Source: Gyrodactylus bullatarudis
Taxonomy: Eukaryota > Platyhelminthes > Monogenea > Gyrodactylidea > Gyrodactylidae
Length of the DNA stretch: 64,000 bases
NCBI GenBank assembly: GCA_012064415.1
Contig: SSNU01000148.1
Location: 53,249-117,248 of the forward strand
Direction: 5' to 3'
A program made the position numbers and the translations under genes. The notes under the pieces were generated by a model that saw nothing but the letters and a program-made list of their open reading frames with translations, ran no database searches and had not been told where the DNA came from. Positions 3,810-49,233 of this stretch are shown piece by piece. Positions within the stretch are counted from its first letter, which is position 1; the number at the start of each line of letters is the position of its first letter.

Positions 3810-4079
3810 TTGTCTGTGCGATATTTTAAAGATCACTCATCCAATTATTATTATGTTAAGAAGTTGCCAACTCAGTATGCTGCTCCTCCTCCTCTTGACC
3901 GTGTTAAACATGGATCCGGTCACGATGCCTCAAATGTTGATCTGGATGTTTCCCACTCTAATCCCACTTTGACATCGCCCGCTGTTCTAACCAATATGAT
4001 CATCAATCCTCCTGGCTCACTCAACAATGGCATTGGAACAATCAACAAAATGAGTAAGCCTGAACAGTTTTTTCGTTAA
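3810..4079 (+). CDS. Short upstream ORF of the LINE (ORF1 remnant?)
   Basis: An 89-codon ORF just upstream of, and overlapping by 26 bases, the ORF2 frame. It has a proline-rich stretch (AAPPPLDRV) and no recognisable zinc knuckle or RRM. Position and overlap fit the tail of a LINE ORF1, but the family cannot be shown from sequence. No longer ORF1 is present upstream, where truncated LINE tails begin. Confidence 0.4.
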   Translation: MSVRYFKDHSSNYYYVKKLPTQYAAPPPLDRVKHGSGHDASNVDLDVSHSNPTLTSPAVLTNMIINPPGSLNNGIGTINKMSKPEQFFR

Positions 4080-6600
4080 TCATTCTGGGTTTTTCCTTCT
4101 CAATATAAGGTCATTTTTCTCTCAAAATTCTCTATTTAACATTAAAGATATAATCTCTAAATTTAAGCCATCCTTATTTTTTGTTACTGAAACCTGGCTT
4201 AGACCTTCTATCTCTGATTCTATTATGAATACTCCTGACTATCTGTTTCTTAGGGCCGATAGATTAGATTCTATTGGTGGTGGAGTTGGTATTTATATCC
4301 ATAATAGTATTAAAATCTTATCTAAAATCTCCTCGTCATCCCCCTTTCAGTATATTTTTATTAAAGTTAATTTAAATGGTGCCATTTATAATTTTCTATT
4401 AGTCTACAGACCCCCTATTGGTTCCAAATATTATATTTCTGATAACTGTCTTTTATCGCATATCTACTCACTAGTAGATACACATGAAAATCTCACAATC
4501 TTGGGAGATTTTAATTTTCCGTCTAAAAATAATTCCCCGTTAATTCCTCCACTTTTTGACGAACTTTTATCCAAATATAACCTCGATCAAATAGTTGATT
4601 CCCCTACACGTAAAGATAATATACTCGATCTCATTTTCTCTAACGTTTTTTTCAGATCAATCTCACGCTCTGTGACATTTTCTGATCACAATTTACTATT
4701 CTTTAATTTTTCTTTATCCAATCACTCCATTTTTTATCAAAAATTAAAGAAAACAGTCGACTTTAAAAAATGCTGTGATCTGGTTCAATCTTCACTGGTA
4801 ATATTATTCAGCAATAATAATTTTAACTCTGACCTTTTTTATTCTCTTATACATAAATCATCTAGATTAACTATCAATTCCCAAAAGTTTTTCAATGACA
4901 CTACTCATTTAGACTTTACTTCCCTGAGGTCTTTTGAATCTATTGTTTCAAACGATCTTAAGACCAACTCTCAAAGAGGTTGGTCTAAATTCAGAAAATT
5001 ACTCAACATAAATAAACTCTCATCTATCGTAAATTTCACTGACCTAACTGATCAAGCGTTCTGTGATAAAATTAATGATAATTTTATCTTATCCTTCAAT
5101 AAAGCAGAAAAAATTGATCTCATTCCAACTCAGTCTCCCCCACCTGTTATCTCTCTAACTGATTTAATTTATTTTTTTAACAAATGTAAAAATAAAAGCA
5201 GACTTGATAATCACTTTAACTCCTTTAATCTATTGAATAACCTACCGTCCTCATTTTTAAACTTACTTATTCAATTCATTAACCAATGCATTGCATTATG
5301 TGATATACCCTCTGAATGGCTTATTGTTAAAATAATCCCCATTCCCAAGGTTAAAAAATATTCTTGCTATTCCGATCTCAGGCCTATATCATCTTTGAAT
5401 ATTTTCCTTTCAATTTTGGATAGGTTTCTGACCGACGAAATATCAAAATCACTGCCCCATCCTTTTCCGGATAAAACACAGCACGGTTTCTTATTCGGTA
5501 AAAGTACATCTAGTAACATGATTGAGTTCATGAACTATACTCTTCACTTTAAGAAAAATCCTAATCAATTCCTCATTATCCATTTTATAGACATATCTAA
5601 GGCATTTGATAAGCTAAAATTCTCTTTTATTAAAAAAAAGCTTATTCAACTTAACATTTGCCCACATATAATTAATCTAACAATGTTTTTTCTCTCTAAT
5701 CGGAAACAATTTGTTTCCTTTAACTCCACCACTAGTAAACTTGAATCAATCAACTCGGGTGTTCCCCAGGGTTCAATAATCGGTCCACTTCTCTTTAACA
5801 TTTGCTTCGCTGATATTCAGCTCCTGGAGAACATTGAGGGTGTTCTCCTTAAATTTGCTGACGATTTCAAATTCGTCTTCAAGGTGAAAAATTCCCTTGA
5901 TATATTGAAAATAAATCACAACTTCTGTCTTCTTAAAGGTTCCCTTGAGGCCATGGGGCTCTATATTAATAGAGATAAATGTAAATTGTTACTCCCAGCT
6001 GGTCTCCCTGCAACCCTCTCGGAATCTCTTCTACTTCCTGGAGAAATTGTCTCCTTAACTTTGGACCTGGGTTTCAGTATCTCTGATGGACTTAAAATTG
6101 ACCCTCTCTCTAATCTCCCTAAAATAAAATCCACTATTTTCTCAATTCTAAAATTCTCTAGGTCCGTTAATTTAAGGCTTAAGGCTTTCAAAGCTTTAGT
6201 CTTAAATAACCTCGATTATATCTCTCCCCTTGTTCCCTCACTAACTTTTGAAAAATCTCTCGAAATTGAGCATATTCAATCTAGATTCCTCTATTTCTTA
6301 TATCCTGATTTAGAATCTTATAATTCTCGCATATTAGTCTCTGGGCTCAACCCTCTCTGGGTTAGAAGATATGCTATTATTGTTAAATCATTTGCTAAAT
6401 CTGTTAACTTATTTGAAAACTCATATAACCTCAGAAACCCCTCTTTTTCAAATCACTATTTACTATCATCATATAATATGATTGATAAAAAATATAAAAT
6501 ATCAGACTGTCACGACCTAACTAATATTAAAACTATAATGTCACACATTAGGTCCAAACTTGATTATTCTAAGAGTCTCCTCTATGCTAATCTTCATTAA
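4054..6600 (+). CDS. LINE ORF2: APE endonuclease-reverse transcriptase
   Basis: The frame is open from 4054 for about 848 codons. The first ATG (4225) would drop the endonuclease N-terminus (LNIRS and VTETWL motifs), so translation probably starts upstream or by reinitiation from the overlapping ORF. APE-type endonuclease motifs follow in order: GGGVGIYI, LVYRPP, LGDFNFP, DSPTRKDNILDLIFSN and the catalytic SDHNLL. Reverse transcriptase motifs follow: DLRPISSLN, FIDISKAFDKL (A), SGVPQGSIIGPLLFN (B) and KFADDFKFVF (C, near codon 601). The C-terminus ends in SKLDYSKSLLYANLH. No RNase H or CCHC knuckle is evident. The uninterrupted frame, against many broken relatives nearby, suggests this is the youngest copy. 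Products nick target DNA and copy the element RNA. Confidence 0.95.
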   Translation, partial: VSLNSFFVNHSGFFLLNIRSFFSQNSLFNIKDIISKFKPSLFFVTETWLRPSISDSIMNTPDYLFLRADRLDSIGGGVGIYIHNSIKILSKISSSSPFQYIFIKVNLNGAIYNFLLVYRPPIGSKYYISDNCLLSHIYSLVDTHENLTILGDFNFPSKNNSPLIPPLFDELLSKYNLDQIVDSPTRKDNILDLIFSNVFFRSISRSVTFSDHNLLFFNFSLSNHSIFYQKLKKTVDFKKCCDLVQSSLVILFSNNNFNSDLFYSLIHKSSRLTINSQKFFNDTTHLDFTSLRSFESIVSNDLKTNSQRGWSKFRKLLNINKLSSIVNFTDLTDQAFCDKINDNFILSFNKAEKIDLIPTQSPPPVISLTDLIYFFNKCKNKSRLDNHFNSFNLLNNLPSSFLNLLIQFINQCIALCDIPSEWLIVKIIPIPKVKKYSCYSDLRPISSLNIFLSILDRFLTDEISKSLPHPFPDKTQHGFLFGKSTSSNMIEFMNYTLHFKKNPNQFLIIHFIDISKAFDKLKFSFIKKKLIQLNICPHIINLTMFFLSNRKQFVSFNSTTSKLESINSGVPQGSIIGPLLFNICFADIQLLENIEGVLLKFADDFKFVFKVKNSLDILKINHNFCLLKGSLEAMGLYINRDKCKLLLPAGLPATLSESLLLPGEIVSLTLDLGFSISDGLKIDPLSNLPKIKSTIFSILKFSRSVNLRLKAFKALVLNNLDYISPLVPSLTFEKSLEIEHIQSRFLYFLYPDLESYNSRILVSGLNPLWVRRYAIIVKSFAKSVNLFENSYNLRNPSFSNHYLLSSYNMIDKKYKISDCHDLTNIKTIMSHIRSKLDYSKSLLYANLH

Positions 6601-9317: not shown

Positions 9318-9559
9318 TAAATACTCAATCTCCAAGGATTTTTCAATACTCAGTGATGGGACTGATGACTAAGAACTGGTGCTTTTTATGAAAAAAAAAA
9401 TTTCTTTAAGACCTCATTCTTGAATTCTCGATTTTCAATAACTCTATTCTAATTATTTATTCATTTTTTGAATAAAATTCTTTGAATCCATGTATTACCG
9501 ACTCATTCAGGGAAGTATAAATTCTGTACAATATTATCTTTAATATCCTTTTTAAATAA

Positions 9560-10260
9560 ATATATGAGGCTCTATATTAATAGAGATAAATGCAAAATAA
9601 TGCTCCTATCTGGTTTCCCTGCAACCCTCTTGGAATCTCTTCTACTTCCTGGAGAAATTGTCTCCTCAACTTCCGACCTGGGTTTCAGTATCAATTCTAA
9701 TTTAAGAATTGATCCATTATCTAATTTGCCTAGAATTAAGTCACACATATTCATTATAAAAAAATTCTCGTTATCCTGTAATGTAAGATTAAAAGAGTAT
9801 AAATCATTTATTCTTCCTCTTTTTGATTATATCTTTCCTATTTTACCTAAAATAAATAACTCTCAATGTTTGGAAATAGAAAGGATTCAATATAGATTCT
9901 TACATTCTATTTACCCTCACCTTGACTCTTATAATGCACTTATCTTTGTCTCAGGGCTTCAACCACTCTCGGTTCGCAGATATGCATTCTAAGTGAAAAA
10001 ATTCTCGGAAACTTATTCCCCAACTCAAAGTAGCTATAATCTCCGTAATAATAAACTTAAATCTAATTTTTTATTGTCTGCTTTTTACTCCATTTACACA
10101 AAATTCGATTTAGCTGACTGTGAGAACCTTACTAATCAAAAATTAGTAATGTCTCACATTAGATCCAAATTAGATTATTCCATTTCCCTTCTCTATTCTT
10201 ATCTTCATAAACCAGATGATTAATGAATTTCTTACAGATTTACAAGTTTTTATTTTTTAA
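9560..10260 (+). pseudogene. 5'-truncated LINE copy with in-frame stop
   Basis: Starts within the post-RT region (RLYINRDKCKIMLLSGFPATL) and reads to VRRYAF. It is then broken by a TGA near 9993, after which the same frame continues to SKLDYSISLLYSYLH and its stop at 10222. It follows the preceding truncated copy in the same orientation. The stop and the 5' truncation make it a dead copy. Confidence 0.85.
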
Positions 10261-15788: not shown

Positions 15789-17060
15789 ATGACTTCCTTT
15801 TCCATTTCCAATATACTCTCTGAGGATTCAACCAATTATGAATGGGCTCATAAAGTCGACACATCATCGGATACTTCCATACGGATTACTACTCAGAAAT
15901 CAGACAACTCTTCTACATTCAATGAGAGTGTTGATGATAAGATACCTTGTAGGTTTACCACATAAAATAATACCACATGAATAAACTAATCAAATTTTTT
16001 GTCAACTTTAGCTGAAAGTAAATCTCATGAGTCTTCATCTCCCCTTCAAATACCTGGTGGATCTTTGAACTTGTTCAACTTGATGCAACACCATTACAAT
16101 CAACTATTCGACAATATGAAACAACAAGAAACTCCAATCCCCCTATTGACAAATCAGACACCCGAGGGAAAACGTCAGAAGATTGAGAGTCATTTGGGCG
16201 CCTGCTTCGAATCAACCTCATCCTCAATGTCGGATTATGAAGAGAACGACGATCAGAATGACCCAAATCATTTCCAGATATCCCCTCAGAACCAGTACGG
16301 TAGTAGAGTTTCAAGACCCCGGAGGTCAAGGACGACATTTACCACTTATCAACTGCATACTCTAGAGACAGCTTTCGCCTCAAATCATTATCCCGATGTA
16401 TCAGTCCGTGATCAATTGGCTGAACAGTTGAATCTCACTGATGGTCGTGTTCAGGTAAGCTTACATTTTTAATTTAATTTTTCTTCCATACTTTACTCAA
16501 GAACTTTTTGAGTCCACTTAAGTTGTTAGTAACAAAAAAGTGGATATTTATTTATCATCCCCTACTACTATGATGGGAACTGGGGATTACCTATTTCACA
16601 CTCTTATTTTTTTCAAATTAATTAACACATTAGATTGCCCAATCCATGTTGGTAACCGAACAAGCCTTGATTTGAAAAAGATTTAATTTGATAATTATCT
16701 TCTCATTAGGTATGGTTCCAAAATCGTCGTGCTAAACACAGAAAATATGAAAAGGTCAAAAAGAATTCAACATTGAACTTGAGTGTAAAGAAACAGAATG
16801 AACCAGCCACTCCTATCCACAGTTCACCAGAATTCACCAGACTTACACAGATGCCGCAATTAAAGGCTCCTCAGACCATGTCCAACCATAACAGTAACCA
16901 GATCCTATCCAATGTTCAGATTGACTCAAAATGGTTGAATGAGACATTAATTAAGTCTCAAACTTTCCTCCAGGGACAAATCCCAGTGAACTTTGAGCAG
17001 TATTTCCCACAGAGTAATCAGAATCCTACTTCAACACCCCTCCTATATGGAAATCATTGA
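15789..17060 (+). CDS. Paired-class (PRD-like, Q50) homeodomain transcription factor
   Basis: Three exons: 15789-15948, 16012-16454 and 16710-17060 (introns 63 and 255 bp, phases 1 and 0), 317 aa. The N-terminus carries FSISNILSE (residues 4-12), an eh1/octapeptide-type Groucho-binding motif. The homeodomain spans about residues 156-215: [21 protein letters not shown], then [12 protein letters not shown]. It has Gln50, Asn51 and Arg53. The intron between homeodomain positions 46 and 47 is classical for paired-class genes. Position 56 is His, where most relatives have Trp. There is no paired box. An acidic serine-rich linker precedes the homeodomain and a polar C-terminal tail follows, with no obvious OAR motif. 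It is presumably a nuclear DNA-binding repressor binding palindromic TAAT sites. Hbn-, Prop- or Vsx-like assignment is unresolved. AATAAA lies just downstream near 17080. Confidence 0.93.
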
Positions 17061-27733: not shown

Positions 27734-29437
27734 TTAGTTGAATTGTAAATCTTTGAACCGTTTGAGTAGTATGTAAATGGTTGTATTATATATTGTTGTT
27801 GTACGTACGACACCATGACGCGAAGCTCTTTCAAAGTTACCCTTGACCATCTCATAATACTTGCCATCTTCAAGAGTTAGCGATTTCAGACGCCAACAAC
27901 GAATTCTTATTGGATAAAATCAATAAAGTAATAGCTTACCTTAGGTGATCGATAAATTTACGACTATTATCACTGAACCGAATTGTCTCCGGGTCCCATT
28001 GGATTTCAAGGGCCTCAAGATTCGGACAATTATTTGCAAAGTTTTCAATCACTCGATCGACATGCACCCTAGTGTTGTACTTGAAGAACCATCCATGAGG
28101 AGTTCCCAAAACGCATATCCTGCAATTGAAATGACCAATTTCCTTACTTAATATTCTTGAGTTTCGGTATGACCATCATCCAAAAATATTCAGCCAAATG
28201 GGGTTTGCCATGAAGCATAATCCCCTTCATTTGAGCACCGTAAATGTCGATGAATCGATTTATTGGTTCATCGCTCAATTCAGGTGTAAAACTCAAATCT
28301 ATCGCTTCAATATTCTCAAATTTGCCTTCATCTATAAGCCGGTTCATAATTTTGTCGTTGAAAAAGTCTACATGACTCAATGCTAGGTAGGTGAATCCTT
28401 TGAAGCGGGTCAAGATATTCTCGAGACATTCTTGAGATAATTCTGTTGAACTGAGATCGAATTCATGAATCCTCGACTTCTCCCAAGGCACCTGCATCAT
28501 GTATTCATCTTTGAGACCTAAAAGTTAGTTAGGAACCAAGCTGAAAGACTCACCACAATGGCGTAATAAAAGCGTCTTGATTTTGTTACAATTGGCCAAG
28601 AGAAGACTGAAACAGGCCCCTTTCACGTTAATACAATAATTAAGGGCTACACATTCAAGATGAATACAATTCATCGCGAGTAATTCCACATGGGAATCCT
28701 CGACAAAAGCAATTCCATATAGGTTAATTACGCGCAAGTTTGGCGTGTGTGCCTTGATTTTGCTAATATTGATAACCTCGTATATTTCTTCTTCCTCTTC
28801 ATTGCCCATTTCAAAAGTTCCTATGAGATGTAATACTTCAAGGGAGTTGAGACACGAATAGATTTTCCTCATTAAACCTTCCATGAAGATGACATCACTC
28901 AGGCATATACACAGGTAGTACAGGGAATTGGGAAAGCCCATAAGCTCATTGTAATCATGAAGCTGCATTGCATTGGAAAAGTCCAACGTCATAAATTTCA
29001 AGTTGGTACATTTATTGTCTAACTCATCCAGGGCTGGTACTGTAATTAAATCACTATTCATTTCAATATATTTGAGACTTGATCCAGATCTCTGATTTAT
29101 AAGATTGATGAGATCATCAACTGAACAAATCTATCAGAAAAAAAGAATCATTAATATTATACATAGCATAGCTTACGCTTAGGCCGCCATACTCTGGCCT
29201 CAGATTGAGGGCTTGCCATAAATGTTCATCGTAAGCAATTCTACGCCATTGCTTGCAGACTCTGACGATTTTGCAGAGCTCTTTATGACTGAGATATGAA
29301 AAGATTCGCAGTATCAACTTTTCCGGAAGCCTGGTAATCATAAACTAAAGAATGGAAGAATGGTTTAATTGAGAATGGTTTTTTACCTCGTTATCCTGGT
29401 AGAACCCAGAAGACATTTTCCTCCGTCGAAAATCCAT
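27734..29437 (-). CDS. F-box / leucine-rich-repeat protein (SCF substrate receptor)
   Basis: Six exons on the minus strand: 29387-29437, 29177-29344, 28554-29130, 28148-28517, 27940-28119 and 27734-27905, 505 aa. All phases match across introns of 42, 46, 36, 28 and 34 bp. The F-box is at residues about 20-66: ITRLPEKLILRIFSYLSHKE, VCKQWRRIAYDEHLWQ. Degenerate LRRs follow (LRVINLYGI, HLECVALNYC, FTYLALSHV, IEAIDLSFTPELSD). The C-terminus has WDPETIRFSDNSRKFIDHLR and YYEMVKGNFERASR then VVRTTT, which I recall as strongly conserved in animal FBXL proteins, though I cannot name the orthologue. The F-box should bind Skp1 in a Cullin-1 ubiquitin ligase and the LRRs the substrate. CCAAT-type motifs (ATTGG, CCAAT) lie upstream near 29560-29615. 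Confidence 0.93.
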
Positions 29438-30204
29438 GGCTAATCTCGATGATCAAGATCAAGGATTATACTATGGAATTGATCAGAGGGGATTATTTGT
29501 TTTAAAATATTATTGATGTACTTAGGATGGGAAATATCAGGAAAACTTTACTCTGATTGGTTAGTTCAGAATAATTCATTCAACATATACACCATGTCTT
29601 CACAAATATTAACCAATCAAATGATAACAAATTAAAAGCCATATTATAAATTTATGTTTCGTGTTTTTCCATGATCCTTACCTTCCTACATGCAGCATGT
29701 TCTATAGACCGAATATCCCCCTGTAACGATCATCAAGAAAGTATTGAGTATACAAAGTCATAACTTTTCCAGAATACAATACAGATCTTTCATAAAATCA
29801 TGATAAGTTCATAATTTTTTCGATTTTAATCCCCTTTAAAAAATAATTCAGCTTATAAAGATCAATATAAGATTCCAGCAGTGTTTTTATTCAAAGACAT
29901 GAAACTTATTACTCTTTAACAATTGCAAACTCCATCCTCAAATAGTTTTTTTCAAGATACAAACATGGATATACTTTCAAGTAACCACGTAAAAATAAGA
30001 TTTTAAATTTCTATTTGAATAATAGAACTGCTAAATTATTTTTTCATGATCTGATTGTGAAAATGTTTCTCCAATCAGGACACAGTAAAGACTTGCATGA
30101 TATTTTTGAAATAGTGTATTCTATGTAGACACTGTTGCTAGTTGCATAACTCAAATGTTTTCAACTTTTTCGATACAGATAGATTTTCAGAAGTTTTTTC
30201 GACA

Positions 30205-30345
30205 TGTAAATAAGCACAATGTAGAAATTACAGTGATTTTAGACATTAAACCTACTAGCAAAGTGTGGTCACTGGTTATTACTATATCAATCTGAATCTA
30301 ACTTGATGGACATTGTCTTCTCACACCTAGATGTTAGAAATTCGG
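30205..30345. repeat. Direct repeat flanking the ribozyme module, left copy
   Basis: Resembles 30571-30730: ATGTAGAAATTA, TTTTAGACATTA and ACCTACT in the first part, then GGTTATTACTATATC and a GATGTTRGAAAT block near the end. The offset between copies is about 366 bp. The divergence indicates an old duplication. Confidence 0.65.
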
Positions 30346-30395
30346 ATAAGCAAGTGTCAATTCCATAAGAGAGTCAAATAATATTCAACTCACGG

Positions 30396-30449
30396 TGGCA
30401 GATGTAGACGCGTTTCGTCCTTATTAGGACTCGTCAGTACACCATAGCC
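30396..30449 (-). ncRNA. Type I hammerhead ribozyme
   Basis: On the minus strand all core elements occur in order. The stem I 5' strand is GGC, an internal loop, then UGUA (30449-30438). CUGACGAG follows (30437-30430). Stem II is GUCC/GGAC with a UAAUA-type loop (30430-30417). GAAA is at 30416-30413. A minimal stem III in ACGCGU precedes UC, with predicted cleavage after C at 30407. The stem I 3' strand is UACA, a loop, then GCC (to 30397). The conserved uridine turn and GAAA are intact. A very short, self-complementary stem III is characteristic of ribozymes carried by Penelope-like elements, Schistosoma Sm-alpha repeats and retrozymes, which cleave as dimers. It should process multimeric transcripts. 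Confidence 0.9.
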
Positions 30450-30450
30450 A

Positions 30451-30512
30451 GGATTCGAACCCAGGTCTTCAACGTTGTGAAGCTTCTAACCTCCTGGTCA
30501 GAACCCCCGTTC
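30451..30512 (-). promoter_or_regulatory. tRNA-like Pol III promoter module upstream of the ribozyme
   Basis: On the minus strand a box A (GACCAGGAGGTTAGAAGC, 30499-30482) is followed by a CTTCA/TGAAG hairpin in anticodon-arm position. A near-perfect box B (GGGTTCGAATCC, 30462-30451) comes next, within a wobble-containing T-arm-like stem. The anticodon loop would have six bases and there is no proper acceptor stem, so this is a tRNA-derived promoter and not a functional tRNA gene. It ends one base before the hammerhead stem I. Confidence 0.7.
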
Positions 30513-30570
30513 GTCTCCTATTATACTCAACACTCCGATGGTATTGACACCACCTACACACTGGTTTTTT

Positions 30571-30730
30571 GTAAATAAGTAACATGTAGAAATTAGTGTT
30601 TTTAGACATTATACCTACTCGACATATTTTTGTAGCTCTAGTTATTACTACTATATCGGAAGTAGTATGTCCATTGAAATCTTCTTGTCTATTCACGCCT
30701 ATGGATGTTGGAAATCGGACAAAATTTTCA
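30571..30730. repeat. Direct repeat flanking the ribozyme module, right copy
   Basis: Partner of 30205-30345. With the left copy it brackets the tRNA-like module and hammerhead, giving the layout of an incomplete tandem dimer with a unit of about 366 bp. Confidence 0.65.
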
Positions 30731-31239
30731 GAAGCAACAAGAAACATAACAAAAACTTTAGCGATTAATAATACTACTTATAATTTCAAGAGAAGTTTAT
30801 TCCTCAATTTATAAATCAATGTTTTAATGTCTTAATGCATGTTGATATAAACCCTGTGTATTTTAGCTGCCGTCCTTTTTCTGACTGCTGTTTTCTTGAC
30901 AGATATTGAAATTCTACTCTACCCACACACAAATCTTGTAATAATAATAATGCATTACACGTCTATTTACATGCACCCTGGGATATAAAAATAACAAATT
31001 GATTTTTTCTTATCTTCCATGTTGAAAATGAATTAAATTTAATTCACACAGTGATACAGATGAATAGGGTTTCAAGAATATGTTGGATTTTTCTTTAAAA
31101 AAATAGAATGTTTTTTTCGAGGAATCTTTAACATTTGCAATAGCCTGTAGCGAGACATTTTATATTTATGAAAAGATCTGAATTGTCTAATTAGAGGTAT
31201 TTATTTTGTAAGTAATCGATTTCTAGCCTGGGTCAGAAT
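30731..31239. other. Intergenic DNA
   Basis: AT-rich, no supported feature. There is no second hammerhead at the position expected if the right-hand repeat unit were complete. Confidence 0.4.
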
Positions 31240-31410: not shown

Positions 31411-31946
31411 TCAAAAGCCTCTAAGTCTTCTATGACTTCGGGCATACTCAAAGAGGATTAGGTGAAATTTTAAACGACATATTAATACCAACTTTTATGA
31501 TAGAATTGTCAGTATTATTTTGAAGCATGTGTCAAAAATACTTCACCATTATGTCATTCAGTTTCAAAAATCAAGAATTTTTCAAATCGCCACTCAATTT
31601 TCAATGAAATTTTACTACACAATCACTAAAATCCGGAATATCTTGACCATTTGATGAATTTCTTAAGTTTTATTATCAAAAATAGTAATCTTTTCATTAA
31701 AGGGACCTTCATGGTAAATTCCGTTGTGGGAAAAATGAGCAATTTGATAATGGAGGATGACTTTCACGTTTTAAAAATATGCAAAACATGATCTGAGTAC
31801 TGAATTCTATCAGAAAAGTAAGTACTCTCTTGAGTTGTTCGGAGAAAAAGAATTTCATCAAAGCCTAATACTCATCAGAGTGATAGTTGCCATATAAGTA
31901 CAAATTCGCAAAGATAAATTCGGGAAATCGAACAATCTGGATTTTT

Positions 31947-32248: not shown

Positions 32249-32465
32249 ACTTTAACAGTTGGAATACTGATAGGAAAATTTATTCATTCTAGGACTTGAA
32301 GAGTTTTAGAAAATTTTATATTGCGTTTCTAAGACAATGCTATATCTAATTGATAAGAACTTTACTTGAGATATATATACTCTTGAAAGGAAAACAATGA
32401 ATTCAGATTTGAATTTATTAAAAGATAGACATAACATTTTTATATATTCTACTGTATGCAAACTT

Positions 32466-33160
32466 AAATAGCATCTTGAGCTTAAATTTATTACGAGATT
32501 GAGAAACTTTGAATCAAACAAAGAAAAATAGGATTTTTTCATGTTATCATTTTTCTGAGAAGGACAGAAATATAGTAAACTTGGACGAAATTTCGCAAAA
32601 TTACTTAAATCAGCCATTGATATGAAAAACTAATCTTCGGGTATTTAAATATAATCCCACCAAATTTCGCTTCAAAATACTTTTCAATGCTTCTGGAATA
32701 AGATAAACAAAATTGGGAAAATGTTTGAATTTAAAACATTTTTTGATCTATCAAAATATTCATGAAAAATTAGAGAAATTTCGTTTTGAGCTATTGAAAA
32801 AACAATTTTAAAGGGATTTAAGTCATTTTTACAACTATGTAAAGAAATAAAGTGAATTCAAGTTAAAATTATAAATATAAAAAAATAAAAAACGTTCTAA
32901 ATTTTCACAATTTTGTTTATCTTATTCCAGAAGCATTGAAATGTATTTTGAAGCGAAATTTGGTGGGATTATATTTAAATACCCGAAGATTAGTTTTTCA
33001 TATCAATGGCTGATTTAAGTAATTTTGCGAAATTTCGTCCAAGTTTACTATATTTCTGTCCTTCTCAGAAAAATGATAACATGAAAAAATCCTATTTTTC
33101 TTTGTTTGATTCAAAGTTTCTCAATCTCGTAATAAATTTAAGCTTAAGATGCAATTTAGA
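32466..33160. repeat. Long near-perfect inverted repeat (~258-bp arms, ~180-bp spacer)
   Basis: 32466-32723 and about 32904-33160 are reverse complements with very few mismatches. Both arms, read divergently, translate to the same peptide beginning MADLSNFAKFRPSLLYFC. This is not independent evidence for a gene, only a consequence of arm identity. The high identity implies recent origin or gene conversion. A transcript would form a long double-stranded hairpin. Confidence 0.85.
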
Positions 33161-35545: not shown

Positions 35546-35699
35546 AATGAATTGACTAGCTTTATTTTGATAGTCATTACTCCTTTGAAATAACAGTATC
35601 AAACAGACACAGGAAAATACTTAAATTTCTCGAGTTATTGTCCAAAGACTTAATAATAGGACTTGTAAAAAGGGTCAAAAGAATAGTCAGTGAAGAAGA

Positions 35700-37310
35700 A
35701 GTGCTCTTGATCCTGATTCTATTAATGATTATTTCATATCATGTTACTCTAAAAGATCATTTTTCCCCTTGTTCCCCTTCACTATTCTAAATTACCAATA
35801 TAGATTTATTAGTTATGATGAATTTATTGAAATTATCAATAGAATTAACCACCAAGATAGTGAAGATATTTACAATATTTCAATTAAAATTATCAAGAAC
35901 TGTTCCCCCAATTTTAAATATCTCCTATATTCTTTCTATTATTACAATATATTTATCAAACTTTCATTGCCAAAAGACTTATTATTAGTCAATATTGTAC
36001 CCATCCCTAAGAATAACTCTCCTAAAGCTGTTAATGACTTTCGTCCTATTTCATTAATGCCCAAACTTACATGTATTTTGGATTCGATAATTCTATTTTT
36101 ACTGAAAAAACATATTGATATCAGCCGTATTGATCCTACTCAACATGGTTTTATTAACTCTCGCTCTACTGAAACAAATCTTCTTGCTTTTTTTCCCACT
36201 TACAAGAATGTAAATCCCTAAATATTCTTAATATAGTTATATATATAGACTTGAAGAAAGCATTTGACTCAATTTCCTTTTCTTCGATCATGAATGTTCT
36301 CTCTGAATATGTTGACGATTTTAACCTTTTAAATGTCATATATTTATTCCTATCATCTAGATCTCAATTTGTTTCTATACATAATAAATCTTCCAGAGTT
36401 TGTGATATTACCTCTGGAGTCCCTCAAGGAAGCCAAATAGGTCCATTATTATTCAATCTTATTTTTTCCAAAATCCAATCCAACAATAATAATATCAGAC
36501 TATTCAAATTTGCTGATGACTTGAAAATATGTTTTTCTTTCCCCAATAATTCTCTAGATATTGATATTGTAGTAAACTTTATTTCAAAATTAGAACAAGA
36601 TCTATCTTTTTTCTCTCTAAAAATTAACTTTGACAAAAGTTTTTTTATCATTCCCTTTATTAGTCCGTCAAATCCTATCTTTAATGACTTTAATATTCAT
36701 ATTTTCAAAAGGAAATTCTTGGTTCGTGATCTTGGTCTTGAATATGATTATAACTTGCGTTTTGATAATTATATAAAATCGATTGCTAATGTTTTTGCTG
36801 CAAGGACCCTTCATATTCATAGAACTGCCAAATCAATCCAACTAAAAATTCTGCTCTTCAAAACGTATGCTAGACCTGCCATTGAATACTGCTCTGCAAT
36901 CTGGAGTCCTTCTGCCTTATCAATGTCTTTTATCCTTGAAACTATTCAGAAACGATTTATTCGCTTATGCAATCTCCCATCCAGTGGTTTCGGCAAAATA
37001 AGACTCCTCAGGCACCGTAGAAATTTTAGATGTATTAAACTTGCTAAAGACAATGTTCAAAGTTTATGGAATATTCAAATAAATCAAAGAGTCCTGAGAA
37101 ATAACAATGTTAAAATTAAAAGACCTTTAAACAATGCCTTAAAGTCCCTTTATTTTTTTGATAGACTTCCATCTTTATTTAACGAAATCTCTCGCAAAAA
37201 TATTGCATTTACTAAAAAAGATTTATACAACTACCTGGAAAACTTTTGATACATATATATATTTTTTTCTTTTTTGATACAATATGACAATAAATTTATT
37301 TATTTATTGA
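35700..37310 (+). mobile_element. Second LINE (jockey-like), 5'-truncated and frameshifted
   Basis: The reverse transcriptase is split by a frameshift near 36221-36251. The first part (35769-36221) has the VNIVPIPKN, DFRPISLMPKL and TQHGFINSRST motifs. The second (36251-37249) has DLKKAFDSI (A), SGVPQGSQIGPLLFN (B) and FKFADDLKICF (C), then a long C-terminal domain ending in LYNYLENF. No endonuclease domain remains. The 3' UTR is short and ends in a TTTATTTATTTATT tail, unlike the TTCTAAC plus A tails of the first LINE, so this is a different family. Confidence 0.9.
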
Positions 37311-37329
37311 ATGAGATTAATGAAATCTG

Positions 37330-37800
37330 AAGAAGACTGGAAGAAAACTGATACTCTGAAAGATTTGTTCAAAAATACATACAAAAAGCTTTAGAAGATG
37401 AAGCAACTCAACCAGTAGAGCAAGAACAAACTGAAGAAGCTACCCCTATCTACATGAAACTAAACTTTAAAGGGGATGGATTCACTCTATTCAGATTTAA
37501 AGTGAAAGACAAGCTGAAAGAATCGGAACAATCTAATCTCATTTATCGCTTCAATGCATCATGCGGAGCTAGATATTTAGCTCGAACTCAAAAAAGGTTA
37601 GCAGTTAGGATCAATGAACAAGAATAGTTCAGTAATTAAAAAACACATTGATAGATACGGGTGCGAAGCGAGCGAAGCAATTTCAAGATTGTATTTAAAA
37701 GTTCAAAAGCGACCAACTGACGGACCTCGAAATCAGAGAGAAGTTTTACATTATGAGGGAAGATCCAAATCTGTGTATTCAAAAGAACTACACACACAAT
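37330..37800 (+). pseudogene. Penelope-like element GIY-YIG endonuclease remnant
   Basis: Frame 1 (to the stop near 37626) reads FRFKVKDKLKE then LIYRFNASCGARYLARTQKR and LAVRINEQ. This resembles the CxC-containing GIY-YIG nuclease of Penelope-like elements (Y-x-CGxxYxGRTxRxLxxRxxEH). An overlapping frame (37614-37922) continues with SSVIKKHIDRYGCEASEAIS, matching the region that follows in those proteins. A frameshift therefore separates the two. The first Cys of the CxC pair is replaced and the catalytic Gly in the YIG-type motif is Ala. Decayed copy. Confidence 0.65.
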
Positions 37801-44900: not shown

Positions 44901-47847
44901 GATTATCTCATATCTTGAGCAGATTTAAAGATGGAACCTAATACAGTTTTTGCGGCTATTAATCAATCAAAATTATGATTACCTTGAACTTTTCACAGAC
45001 CAAATCTCTATGAATGGTAGCCTGAAAGTCTGGATTTATGTTGCTCTTGATTTCGTCCAAATCCTTCTTGTTGGCAGGATAGAAGGCCTCATGGAAGCCA
45101 TGAACTTTGAATGGAGGCAGCAAAGACTTTGGGTCAGTTTTGAATATTTCCTGGAGAAAGATTTTTATCTCTTCAAGTAATGCATTCTTTGGCGAATTCA
45201 CTGATGTCTTTGTGCAAGATATTTTCATTTCATCTAATTGCTAGAATAAAATAGGAATAGATATATATTAGAGTAACATTTAATCTCATTTTGAAGATGA
45301 TCGAAAAGTGAGCATTTTTCCTATAAGACCATGTTTTCGAGTTATTTCTGATATTCAAAATCTCGATTGAAGATGACAATTTTTGAACAACCGCCATGAT
45401 TTTTTCAATGAATTTTACTACGAGAAAGGAGAAAATTAAGATTTTTGAATAGTTTTTGTAAAATTTTGAATAGGGTTTATAGTAAATATTGAGTCTTTTT
45501 CCACAGGTTGAAAGAAATTCCTGGGAAATTAGGTAAATTTTGATGCCTTTAGGGAAAATGGGATTTTTGTGTATCAGAACATGAACAAATTTTATTTTGA
45601 TTTTCAAAAATGTACTTTTCACGATTTAAATATCAAGGCATGGAACATTGTTCGGGGAAAATAAAATTTTGTATTACCCTAATATATATATATATTAGTT
45701 TCGTATGAGCTCGAGCCTTGCTTGATGAATTATGCTTCCTAGCCCTCTCTACGTACGTATTTTTCAAGACTGGATGCAACAATTCAATAGACTATTATTC
45801 CTGTCATGAACGTAGTGATTTCAAATAACCTTTTTCTCTTGTAGGTTAGTACCTAATAAGGATATTTTTATCTATCATACTCAGGGTACCACTTAGGCAA
45901 TTCATCATTGTACAATGTATTATATCTAAGCCTCAGAAAGTACTTGGTATACCCCCGATTCAATAGGAAATCTATGAGTCTCCTGAAATACGCAAAAAAG
46001 TTGATTTTTTTCAAAAGAAACTAAAAATAATTTCGTTAAAATAACTATAGTCATGAAAAAAAAAGTCTGAGATTTTTAATGAAAAATTTCAACGTACCTC
46101 TTTAAGACTTTTCATGCTCATCTTCCTATTAACTGGCATTTTGACAGGGTTGACCATGACTTTAGGATTGAAATTGGAAGGGTGCTTGCCATCAGTTTCC
46201 ATAGCATTGTCATTCTGCTCGGAGAACTTTTGGATAAAATACTTTGACTTTTGTATTAGACTGGATAAGCTATGCAAATCAGGATCTTGGCTGTTCCAAT
46301 CGGCTACGAGGAGATTCCTCAAATAACTATTCGTCTTCTCCTCATTATTCAATGCGATGATATTTTTCATGAGACGAGAGAACTTGAGAAATTCATAGCT
46401 ATCGTTGAGGTTTCTCTTCAAATCTTCATCTGAAATGTTACTGATGGGGAAGAAAATGAATTGAATGAGGTGAAATTTGCAAGTTTTCCAAGAATCTCAC
46501 TTAAAGCTGGGAAAGATGTTTTCCACGAGGAACTTGGTTTGTGCCAATTTACCTTCAAGCCAAGAGAGATACAAATCGGAAATCTAAATACATGTCCATC
46601 ATAATGCAATGATTAAAAGGGGAAAAAAGAAGAAATTCTCACAGAAGTCTGCTTGGACATTGAAGAATTTTGGCTAATCCGATAGAGCCACTGGATGACT
46701 ATGGGAACTCTAATTTGTAACCTCCAATTGTTTTCAATATGCTCAGTCAGTTTAGACTCAATCAAAGAACTTGAAGTTAGTAGGTTACATGAGACAGGTT
46801 GAGATAACGTACGCCTAGTCTGTGGGCTTTTTATACGATCTGGAGATTTTATTGACTCCTTATCATCCCGGGTGCATTCTTTGATGAATTCAGAATCATT
46901 TGTGAGCTCATTGAGTGATGTAAAGGATCGCAAAAGACATTGGAATTCTCGGCCAGAGAGGGAATTAAAATAAAATTTTGTCTTTTCCAAATCCCCACAT
47001 GTGATATAGATGTATTGGGGATACTTGAAGATTGTCTTGAGAAAGATGAACTTGATTCTTCTCAAAAGATTTTTCACTGAGTAATCTAAGCATAACATAA
47101 GATCATCGATTAGGTATATCAATGAATTAGCATTCAATTTCATTCCACAATAAGCCATCATTTTTTCTACGACTGTGTTGACAAAAACCATCGGAGATGG
47201 AGTTTGGAATAGGACAATATCCATTCGACTTGATGTGCTTGAATTTAACCTTGAAGTTAAACTTATCTCAAGGGTAGTGGAGATGCAAAAAGCTAAAACT
47301 AAGGGCTTAAGGTGACTTTCACAAATCCGATAGTTTGTGCAAATGTCTATAAAATCATTGAGAGTTTCATTTGTTATTCCATCCAAGTCAGATATCATGA
47401 ATACTATCGGTCCGGATTTTAAATTTGAGTCTAAAATTATTCAAAGATGAGCTAACCTGATTTTATATTTTGATTTAATCCAAATAATGATTTCTGAACG
47501 GTAGAATACATTTGGGAATCTCCTTCAATTGACAATTGTTCAATCAGTTTTTCAATTAAAGTTCTGGCGTTGTTAATTGAATTTAACCCATGAGTTGAAG
47601 CGAAATACCCATTACAAACATCGTTCACAGTCTTGGAGACATTACTAATGAAAAAATCCAAATCAGGATTATTCACACCAGTCAGAAAAACACAGGAGGC
47701 AATTGATTCAACCTTTTCATACTCTTTTCTCAAAAGGTAATCTCTAAACGTTATTAAAGATTCATTAGATAGATTTTCAATATCCTTTTGACAGAGATTA
47801 GCAAAGTTTTCCCAATTTCGACCAAAGAATTTATTAACCTTTTCCAT
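41987..47847 (-). CDS. ORC3: Origin recognition complex subunit 3
   Basis: Six exons on the minus strand: 47457-47847, 46643-47403, 46501-46583, 46098-46440, 44983-45240 and 41987-42223, about 690 aa (human ORC3 is about 711). Diagnostic segments: SCVFLTGVNNPDLDFF (N-terminal AAA-like region), VFMISDLDGIT in Walker-B position, PLVLAFCISTTLEI, and LCLDYSVKNLLRRIKFIFLK. The C-terminal part has SLLPPFKVHGFHEAFY and DFSIMYKLHTEF then NDWLYAFNAM. Introns are 53, 59, 60, 857 and 2759 bp, and the two long ones hold MITEs. In exon 6 the open frame upstream of 42223 is intron and MITE sequence: the phase-0 acceptor lies at 42224. The C-terminus is acidic and lacks the usual RLTW end unless the exon at 40383 is used. 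ORC3 acts in the six-subunit ORC that loads MCM at origins. Confidence 0.9.
42279..42510. repeat. piggyBac-type MITE in the ORC3 last intron
   Basis: The left end CCATTCATATCCCATT and the right end ATATGAAGGG are followed by TTAA (42511-42514). The left flank is a mutated GTAA. The interior matches the copy at 51321-51768 (TTTTGAACTGAAAGA, ATATGTATAA, AAAGTTACTT). It supplies a misleading open-frame extension upstream of ORC3 exon 6. Confidence 0.75.
42515..44982. other. Remainder of ORC3 intron 5
   Basis: AT-rich intron sequence with no defined repeat or gene. Confidence 0.5.
45264..45683. repeat. TA-flanked MITE in ORC3 intron 4
   Basis: Inverted relative to the copy at 33892-34360: GAGTAACATTTAATC at the left end, GTATTACCC followed by TA at the right end, and shared GAACATTGTTCGGGGAAAA near the right end. 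It lies wholly inside the 857-bp intron 45241-46097. Confidence 0.7.
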
Positions 47848-48294: not shown

Positions 48295-49233
48295 TTAATC
48301 AAATGGAAATTGTCTTCTTAACATGGAATTGAGTAGTAGGAAATTGCAAACATCTTGGTCTGGATTAATAAATCCATGTCTGAACAAAAAGTCCAAAATA
48401 ACTAAACCAGAATTGGGTTTAAATATATCTTGACATATGAGTTCTTTAACTTGGTCAATACTCAGTAAACGAAAACCGTTTACCTCTCCATCAGAGTTGA
48501 TTGGTGTGAATTCTGCGGGCAATTTCAAATCATAACAAAATTCTAGATTAGGAGAGATTCCTTTACAACTTTCACTGATACAGCTAACATATCCAACCGG
48601 CTTAAGACCTTCTAGAAGATCTTCTGGAATGGATGCCTCTTCAACACATTCTTTTTTGACGCAATCGGAAACACTCATTTCGTAAGTGAGTCCACCTGCC
48701 ACTATATTATCAAGCATTCCAGGATGATTTTGCTTGGTTAAAGACCTCTGAGCGATCCACATGAACATTTCCATCTTTTGAGTAAGAGGATTACGAACAA
48801 AAGTGTAGCCATTGACATGAACTCCATAACGTGAAACTCCCAACATTACAGAGGCAGCTCTTTCCATTTTCAAAAAAACCTTTTCTCTATTACTGGAATA
48901 GATTCCAAAATCTTCATCTCGCCAACCCTTCAAGGCATCAAGATTAGATCCTCGACGTAGCTCTTGCATTACAATACTCACAGCCAAAGATCTCTCATCA
49001 AAATCCTTTAACATAGGATTGAGAATAATTGATCTCTCTTCTTGGGATTCTACTTCTTGGAAAACCTCTGGAAATCTAAGTAGGTGTTCTGCTATTGCTG
49101 GTCTTATGAGTCCTACAAAGTGTCCTTCAATAAGAAATTTGTAGCAGTCGAATGGTTTGATGTTGTTCGGAGCAAAATTATTACATCTTGAGCTAACCAG
49201 CTTCAGAAATCCCGAAAGAGGGCTGAAGGTCAT
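48295..49233 (-). CDS. DUF4743/Nudix hydrolase (YJR142W/NUDT20-24-like)
   Basis: Single-exon gene of 312 aa. In-frame stops just upstream of the ATG support the start. The N-terminal half is the DUF4743-type region that precedes this Nudix subfamily (FLIEGHFVGLIRPAIAEHL, then VSRYGVHVNGYTF). The Nudix fold follows, with the partner motif PGMLDNIVAGGLTYEM. The Nudix box, residues about 179-201, reads GGLTYEMSVSDCVKKECVEE: the two catalytic glutamates of EE are present, but the first conserved Glu is Met and the usual Arg is Lys. Known relatives hydrolyse damaged (oxo- and oxy-) thiamine diphosphates, so a metabolite-repair role is inferred. It is divergent with ASPP across 234 bp. Confidence 0.93.
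   Translation of the reverse strand: MTFSPLSGFLKLVSSRCNNFAPNNIKPFDCYKFLIEGHFVGLIRPAIAEHLLRFPEVFQEVESQEERSIILNPMLKDFDERSLAVSIVMQELRRGSNLDALKGWRDEDFGIYSSNREKVFLKMERAASVMLGVSRYGVHVNGYTFVRNPLTQKMEMFMWIAQRSLTKQNHPGMLDNIVAGGLTYEMSVSDCVKKECVEEASIPEDLLEGLKPVGYVSCISESCKGISPNLEFCYDLKLPAEFTPINSDGEVNGFRLLSIDQVKELICQDIFKPNSGLVILDFLFRHGFINPDQDVCNFLLLNSMLRRQFPFD

Follow-up and report, generated by a model that had tools for sequence, protein, structure and literature searches.

A type I hammerhead motif in a Gyrodactylus genome as one module of a probable SINE-type retrozyme with a Penelope-like insertion signature

The window, meaning the whole 64-kb stretch of DNA analysed, holds several protein-coding frames and repeats besides the ribozyme motif. 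A Nudix/DUF4743 gene (48298-49233) finds its best protein match in the monogenean Cichlidogyrus casuarinus (53% identity), followed by five flukes, which on this one gene suggests a monogenean-like flatworm and bears out the first-pass annotation in placing the DNA in an animal genome. A homeodomain frame lies on the plus strand (15990-16472), and the minus strand carries an ORC3-like frame (46613-47440) and a frame of leucine-rich look that has no Pfam match (28525-29130). Reverse transcriptase frames, LINE-like by reading, were found at 4054-6600 (848 codons without a stop), 9486-9992 and 35694-37249; the outer two gave RVT_1 matches (4054-6597 and 36173-37246), and 9486-9992 was assigned by likeness. 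Directly downstream of the last of these frames, stretches of 37307-37785 on the plus strand are 83-89% alike to the GIY-YIG-bearing loci L043 and L048. A remnant of the block that adjoins a putative minimal hammerhead in Penelope-like elements (PLEs) lies at 31868-31912 on the minus strand (91% identity over 45 nt to the PLE loci L044 and L045), and an inverted repeat of 258 nt, 98% complementary and with its arms 178 nt apart (32465-32722 and 32901-33158), looks recent.

The ribozyme motif was read by inspection from the minus strand as GGCUAU-GGUGUA-CUGACGA-GUCCUAAUAAGGAC-GAA-ACGCGU-C/UACAUC-U-GCC, with the slash at the predicted cleavage point (Table 1). Stem I (GGUGUA/UACAUC) comprises six base pairs, one of them G-U, and continues, beyond an internal loop, with GGC/GCC; GUCC/GGAC forms stem II, and the ribozyme core, CUGACGA...GAAA, is complete. 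By inspection this is the layout of a type I hammerhead (a CUGANGA...GAAA...UH core, stems I, II and III, and an open stem I), and the letters, stems I and II and the order of the core are all as the first-pass annotation had described them. Stem III consists of ACGCGU only, a palindrome that would form one or two pairs alone and six between two molecules; the palindromic stem III of the annotation is thus present, is newt-like and would be expected to favour dimers.

An Rfam search of the 64-kb window returned no match at the gathering score. With model RF00163 the ribozyme scored 26.6 bits (E 0.032 over the whole window) compared to a gathering score of 34, which is a curation threshold and not a chemical criterion, and the low value is due to the short stem III, since that of the model is longer and two of its positions are missing here. 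Formally, the covariance check proposed with the annotation therefore went against the motif, but the short stem III and the number of copies account for the score. The 31-nt ribozyme motif recurs at 326 places (161 forward and 165 reverse, with up to three mismatches) in the assembly searched (77.3 Mb, 471 contigs) and the reversed control pattern at none, which excludes a chance origin. RNA folding gave -18.1 kcal/mol (z -3.2, with none of 200 dinucleotide shuffles as low), yet in this minimum-energy structure GACG of the core is paired to CGUC, an arrangement other than the active fold. For the monomer, this inactive fold at -18.1 compares with -13.5 for the hammerhead without stem III and -7.8 with one stem III pair, while for two strands the inactive fold reaches -42.0 and the hammerhead dimer -35.1. 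In these energy models, which ignore tertiary contacts, the preference for the inactive pairing would speak mildly against a freely active ribozyme. Judged from its letters, the minus-strand motif is a real type I hammerhead ribozyme, the cleavage of which is predicted only.

The ribozyme lies within an element bounded by an 11-nt duplication, which was spotted by eye and then checked; the 11-mer ATTTTCAGAAG occurs only twice in the 64-kb window and not at all on the other strand. The automatic boundary search placed the edges further in, with a 7-nt repeat only, because the 5' part of the window copy has diverged. This copy is a single-orientation insertion ending at the long start site described below, and it contains no long frame, hence encodes neither a reverse transcriptase nor a GIY-YIG endonuclease. 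The repeat unit (GC 0.405) is 365 nt long in the window, compared to 369 nt in locus L010, and in L010 an A box (TGGCCTAGTGG) is found at 68, a B box (GGTTCGAATCC) at 112, the Rfam match at 130-178 and the cleavage site after 166. The A and B box consensus (GGTTCGARTCC for the B box) is what we take to be that of tRNA-type RNA polymerase III (pol III) promoter boxes; GGTTCGARTCC has a single match in the window on either strand, at 30461-30451. The two boxes follow each other in order and with tRNA-like spacing in L010, and the A box of the window copy is degraded. Among 49 arms covering the box region, 34 have the A box, 29 the B box and 18 both. ARAGORN gave no match in the window or in 22 loci, and Rfam no tRNA match, so the tRNA link rests on the two box motifs.

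Across the genome, the repeat of about 369 nt around the ribozyme is shared by at least 73 matches (40 of 974 candidates scored), and the joint between B box and ribozyme was found at 179 sites. Stronger conservation of the ribozyme was also sought across the copies and not found: its 31-nt window ranks 90 of 338 and is no better conserved than the rest of the repeat. The repeat is short (365-369 nt), non-coding and below 50% in GC and carries a type I hammerhead, as retrozymes do. On sequence grounds, the hammerhead is probably one module of an Sm-alpha-like, SINE-type retrozyme with a non-coding repeat of about 369 nt; the first-pass annotation was silent on the pol III boxes, the repeat unit and the head-to-head form described below.

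Table 1. Features of the hammerhead-bearing element in the window
Feature	Position	Strand	Basis or remark
Type I hammerhead, extended stem I	30396..30449; Rfam match 30443-30401	minus	inspection, Rfam, folding
Predicted cleavage site, after C30407	30406..30407	minus	GAAACGCGTC / TACATC
Whole retrotransposed element, ~1.4 units, 530 nt, GC 0.377, longest stop-free stretch 84 codons	30194..30723	minus	between exact 11-nt duplications
Target site duplication, copy 1, ATTTTCAGAAG	30183..30193		element edge
Target site duplication, copy 2, ATTTTCAGAAG	30724..30734		element edge
Complete repeat unit, 365 nt	30205..30569	minus	90.6% identity to L010:1553-1921
5'-truncated second unit (partial tandem)	30570..30723	minus	50 nt adjoining the full unit ~85% alike, remainder diverged
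tRNA-type B box, GGTTCGAATCC	30451..30461	minus	directly upstream of extended stem I (start 30449)
A box, degraded, TGACCAGGAGG (TGGCCTAGTGG in L010)	30490..30500	minus	motif
A-run, short reverse-transcription start site (unit ~338)	30237..30240	minus	sequence
A-run, long start site (unit ~371), end of window copy	30194..30199	minus	sequence

The form of the insertions was assessed at 88 loci, namely 30 from among the best DNA matches, one PLE neighbour (L043), 22 places of the ribozyme motif, 28 listed ribozyme places and 7 loci chosen partly by listed opposite-strand neighbours. Eight loci duplicating insertions already counted (L056, L059, L061, L062, L068, L069, L071 and L074), groups with fewer than 100 aligned nt, one group at a locus edge and, from the end counts, pieces below 60 nt were left out. 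Pieces were grouped into one element only when less than 60 nt apart, and wider opposite-strand neighbours were uncounted (plus then minus in L027, 839 nt, and L063, 166 nt; minus then plus in L072, 78 nt, and L104, 67 nt). The resulting 96 elements comprised 51 head-to-head pairs with their 3' ends outward, 44 single pieces, one with two same-strand pieces and no tail-to-tail pair. The 7 loci chosen partly by opposite-strand neighbours inflate the head-to-head share, and without them the counts are 45, 43, 1 and 0 of 89 elements. Exact duplications of at least 9 nt bound 42 of 95 elements, compared to 0.58% in a control that combined the left flank of one locus with the right flank of another; the other 53 have no duplication of that length. 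The duplications are longer than the 4 bp set for retrozymes and support the annotation's retrotransposed element. By type, 30 of the duplication-bearing elements are head-to-head, 11 single and one same-strand. Since one duplication encloses both arms, a head-to-head pair represents one event. Comparison of the flanks showed scattered shared repeats and, in our reading, no duplication-bearing insertion counted twice.

The 3' ends fall into two clusters (unit 321-350 and 356-11) about 33 nt apart, with 43 of 141 pieces ending at unit 331-340 and 51 at 361-10, both at A-runs; in duplication-bearing head-to-head elements the medians are 338 and 371. These are the short and the long start site, respectively, and a hairpin is predicted around the long one in one copy. 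Both outer ends lie in the clusters in 38 of the 51 head-to-head elements, and the remaining 13, with an outer end in neither cluster, were excluded from the pairing test. A short end was combined with a long one in 24 of the 27 classable elements among the 30 duplication-bearing head-to-head insertions, compared to 13.6 with shuffled ends (p 5e-5 and 1e-4 in two runs). Without the duplication filter the count was 30 of 38 (19.0 expected, p 3.5e-4 to 5e-4), after removal of the 7 loci mentioned above 20 of 23 (11.6 expected, p 4.5e-4), and in the 30 best-DNA-match loci alone 10 of 12 (6.1 expected, p 0.03). Single-orientation insertions with duplications (n = 12) ended at the short site in four cases and at the long site in eight.

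A second hammerhead family was recovered from the genome-wide Rfam search, which gave at least 57 matches, 29 of them passing the gathering score (73 of 11,180 candidates scored). The eight best matches (L001-L008) belong to this family, which mostly has ACGCGCGU as stem III, and L008 has a B-box-like stretch upstream of the ribozyme. In our reading of the matches, four of the eight loci (L003, L004, L005 and L007) are head-to-head, and by eye the 3' ends lie at two places about 41 nt apart.

The 5' ends accumulate close to the A box. Unit 61-73 holds 18 of the 141 ends (5.0 expected); counted against the 68 ends that lie in unit 1-135, the same 18 compare with an expected 6.5 (p 6e-5), and in partner arms the interval holds 6 of 67 ends, with 2.4 expected. 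Unit 1-60 is poor in 5' ends, with 10 of the 68 where 30 would be expected. Seven of the 18 lie before the A box and 11 inside its first six bases (68-73), positions that are blurred by a few bases since local alignment trims ends. We read this cluster as the likely 5' end of a pol III transcript, a reading blurred by the 11 ends inside the box. At the ribozyme cut, only one of 141 ends was found (unit 165-172, 3.1 expected, in loci often chosen by the ribozyme motif), and one of 67 in the less biased partner arms (unit 164-172, 1.6 expected); 5' ends downstream of the ribozyme are under-sampled. In 38 of 157 pieces the length exceeds one unit (up to 641 nt, or 1.74 units, with no full dimer in the sample), so an RNA longer than the unit, or a circle, was copied and the cut site was read through. 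That self-processing defines the transposing RNA, as the first-pass annotation held, has so far gone unsupported, with no build-up of 5' ends at the ribozyme cut and these 38 pieces reading through it. The two arms of an insertion overlap by at least 60 nt in unit coordinates in 40 head-to-head elements, and their median identity in these is 0.97, compared to 0.91 between loci; in four of 38 elements the arms are free of substitutions at the 132-198 sites compared, and in others they have rare variants in common. This usual sharing of variants points to one RNA or source behind both arms. Two RNA templates per insertion were considered as well: of 28 duplication-bearing head-to-head elements with sufficient overlap, 17 have no arm difference at commonly variable sites and one has three or more, which makes one RNA or source more likely.

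Head-to-head arms, 3' ends at two sites some 30-40 nt apart, a tail on one arm and short duplications together amount to the insertion signature of PLEs. In the accessible parts of PMC3846280, head-to-head is the commonest inverted form of PLE copies, and the Adineta inserts have inverted pLTRs, a 31-bp tail on one of them and duplications that measure 8-10 bp in the cited examples and are missing from some copies; self-priming was proposed there. The purified Anolis PLE protein, according to the available text of PMC11167929, cuts and extends both DNA strands, reverse transcription beginning at a pair of neighbouring internal sites that correspond to the tail, and ribozyme mutants still insert. 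The two strands are reported there to show no difference in start site, which leaves room for pairing within one insertion but does not demonstrate it. The genome studied here has PLE frames carrying both reverse transcriptase and GIY-YIG domains, and 19 GIY-YIG matches, not all of them PLEs, were found in it. A block common to diverged PLE copies occurs at 235 sites (control 0), and we read it as a putative minimal hammerhead with UCACA/UGUGA as stem I. Among its listed zero-mismatch places, 16 neighbour pairs within 5 kb were, by eye, head-to-head in 14 cases, tail-to-tail in one and same-strand in one. Two PLE composites, L042 and L044, were examined for their ends, both by eye. L044 has a 12-nt duplication (AATATGAAATTC) and one short and one long end, and the head-to-head composite of L042 is nested in a copy of the second retrozyme family and shows a duplication of roughly 10 nt with one mismatch, other copies of the family thus showing the empty site. 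The PLE tail in this genome is longer, at about 46-62 nt by eye. When retrozyme and PLE 3' regions were compared, no clear homology was seen, the matches being hammerhead to hammerhead, a retrozyme copy in L043 and short low-score matches. The element inserts like a PLE, yet, with no long frame, is not a PLE itself.

What was observed is the anatomy of the element and its copy number, the duplications at the target, the head-to-head form and the two clusters of 3' ends together with the way they pair. The element is probably (at roughly 0.77) a SINE-type retrozyme with an internal pol III promoter, a palindromic hammerhead and two start sites, moved by PLE machinery. Transcription by pol III, a PLE as the enzyme, self-cleavage as a dimer and the order of the steps are what we infer. 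In the proposed scheme, pol III would make a retrozyme RNA beginning close to the A box; multimeric or circular forms may also arise, and are proposed because some copies are longer than the unit. An autonomous PLE would supply the enzyme, a reverse transcriptase with a GIY-YIG endonuclease, which would cut both strands of the target DNA. Each cut strand would then serve as a primer on the retrozyme RNA, in most cases with one strand starting at the short site and the other at the long one. Joining of the two 5'-truncated cDNAs at their 5'-sense ends would yield a head-to-head pair within a single duplication of about 9-16 nt, or just one arm if one of the syntheses fails. The chances appear even for the wider proposal that retrozymes and PLEs both insert by symmetric double target-primed reverse transcription, in which two polymerase units split the two RNA start sites and one arm becomes tailed. 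If so, the head-to-head palindromes of PLEs would be a normal product instead of self-priming accidents, and the optional tail the trace of a second start site.

The most serious alternative, though an unlikely one, is that PLE machinery is at work but the second arm arises from the first cDNA by self-priming or fold-back copying, instead of by another target-primed synthesis. The closeness of the arms, including those with no substitutions and those with shared rare variants, would be expected from such copying. A copied arm should, however, stop anywhere within the first, whereas in most cases the shorter arm ends at the short start site, a site also used by single-orientation insertions, and extension of both DNA strands by a PLE in vitro (in the portions of PMC11167929 available) also argues against a fold-back. 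It is rather improbable that an ordinary SINE was mobilised by a LINE and that the head-to-head form arose by L1-style twin priming, with a second primer annealing within the same RNA. The inverted piece made by twin priming stems from RNA further upstream and carries no repeat of the 3' end. Twin priming would also place inversions within a single target duplication, and LINE-like reverse transcriptases are present in the window. Twin priming is nevertheless disfavoured because the arms overlap and share 3' ends: both usually reach the 3' start sites, mostly with one short and one long end, and in 40 elements they have at least 60 nt in common. The designation of Sm-alpha elements as SINE-like (PMC2770079 and PMC8490949, accessible parts) also lends the LINE-based explanation some weight. 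A satellite or fold-back DNA repeat spread by recombination, with the hammerhead as a fossil without a role, is very improbable. The tandem and inverted arrangement and the unremarkable conservation of the ribozyme would fit such a repeat, but dispersed insertions with exact duplications already contradict it, as do the preferred 3' end sites, the variable 5' truncation and the lack of any piece above 1.74 units among 157.

Being small, dispersed and present in hundreds of copies, the element provides a cleaner insertion record than large PLEs, in which start sites, pairing and duplications are countable, and the short/long pairing makes the PLE insertion mechanism testable with an RNA of 370 nt and the protein in purified form. 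Should the pol III boxes be in use, a retrozyme would have a promoter of its own.

The combination of a hammerhead with a tRNA-like SINE is not new in flatworms, since Sm-alpha elements already have it. In the accessible text of PMC2770079 and PMC8490949, the schistosome Sm-alpha and Sj-alpha elements are SINE-like, with a type I hammerhead, a 335-bp relative and similarity to predicted tRNA-Gln genes, and no report of head-to-head insertion or two-site tails was met for Sm-alpha there. The likeness to the present element (a flatworm SINE-like element, a hammerhead, a tRNA relation) is one of description and not of sequence alignment. The metazoan non-LTR retrozymes of Cervera and de la Pena (2020) are described, in the parts of PMC7229834 available, as non-coding, low in GC and 150-450 bp long, with type I hammerheads, duplications above 4 bp and coexisting PLEs. 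They form multimers, whereas the tandems of the present element are partial, reaching no more than 1.74 units in the sample, and it has pol III boxes, while retrozymes seem to be without promoters according to the review PMC7761336, as far as its text was accessible. A search for retrozymes linked to RNA polymerase III found only work on LTR elements, with most subscription papers outside its reach. In the axolotl HHR_Amex1, which lies in a repeat of about 330 bp, stem III is very weak, its loop is palindromic and the motif works better in dimeric form (PMC7229834, same parts); compared by description, the newt and axolotl satellite hammerhead shares the weak palindromic stem III and the repeat size and differs in host. 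With PLEs, the element has in common the head-to-head partial copies, an optional tail at one end, short duplications and a type I hammerhead (accessible parts of PMC3846280, PMC11167929 and PMC7761336), but it encodes no protein and has no clear sequence in common with the PLE loci compared. PLEs are regarded as strong candidate movers of animal retrozymes on account of their hammerheads, tandem copies and coexistence, so far as a proposal (PMC7229834, in the text available). The literature searched, most subscription papers being outside it, yielded no report of a hammerhead in Gyrodactylus or monogenean retrotransposons or of a head-to-head link between retrozymes and Penelope. The type of element is already known; within the reach of these searches, the novelty lies in the structural evidence for PLE machinery moving a retrozyme and in the frequent pairing of its start sites.
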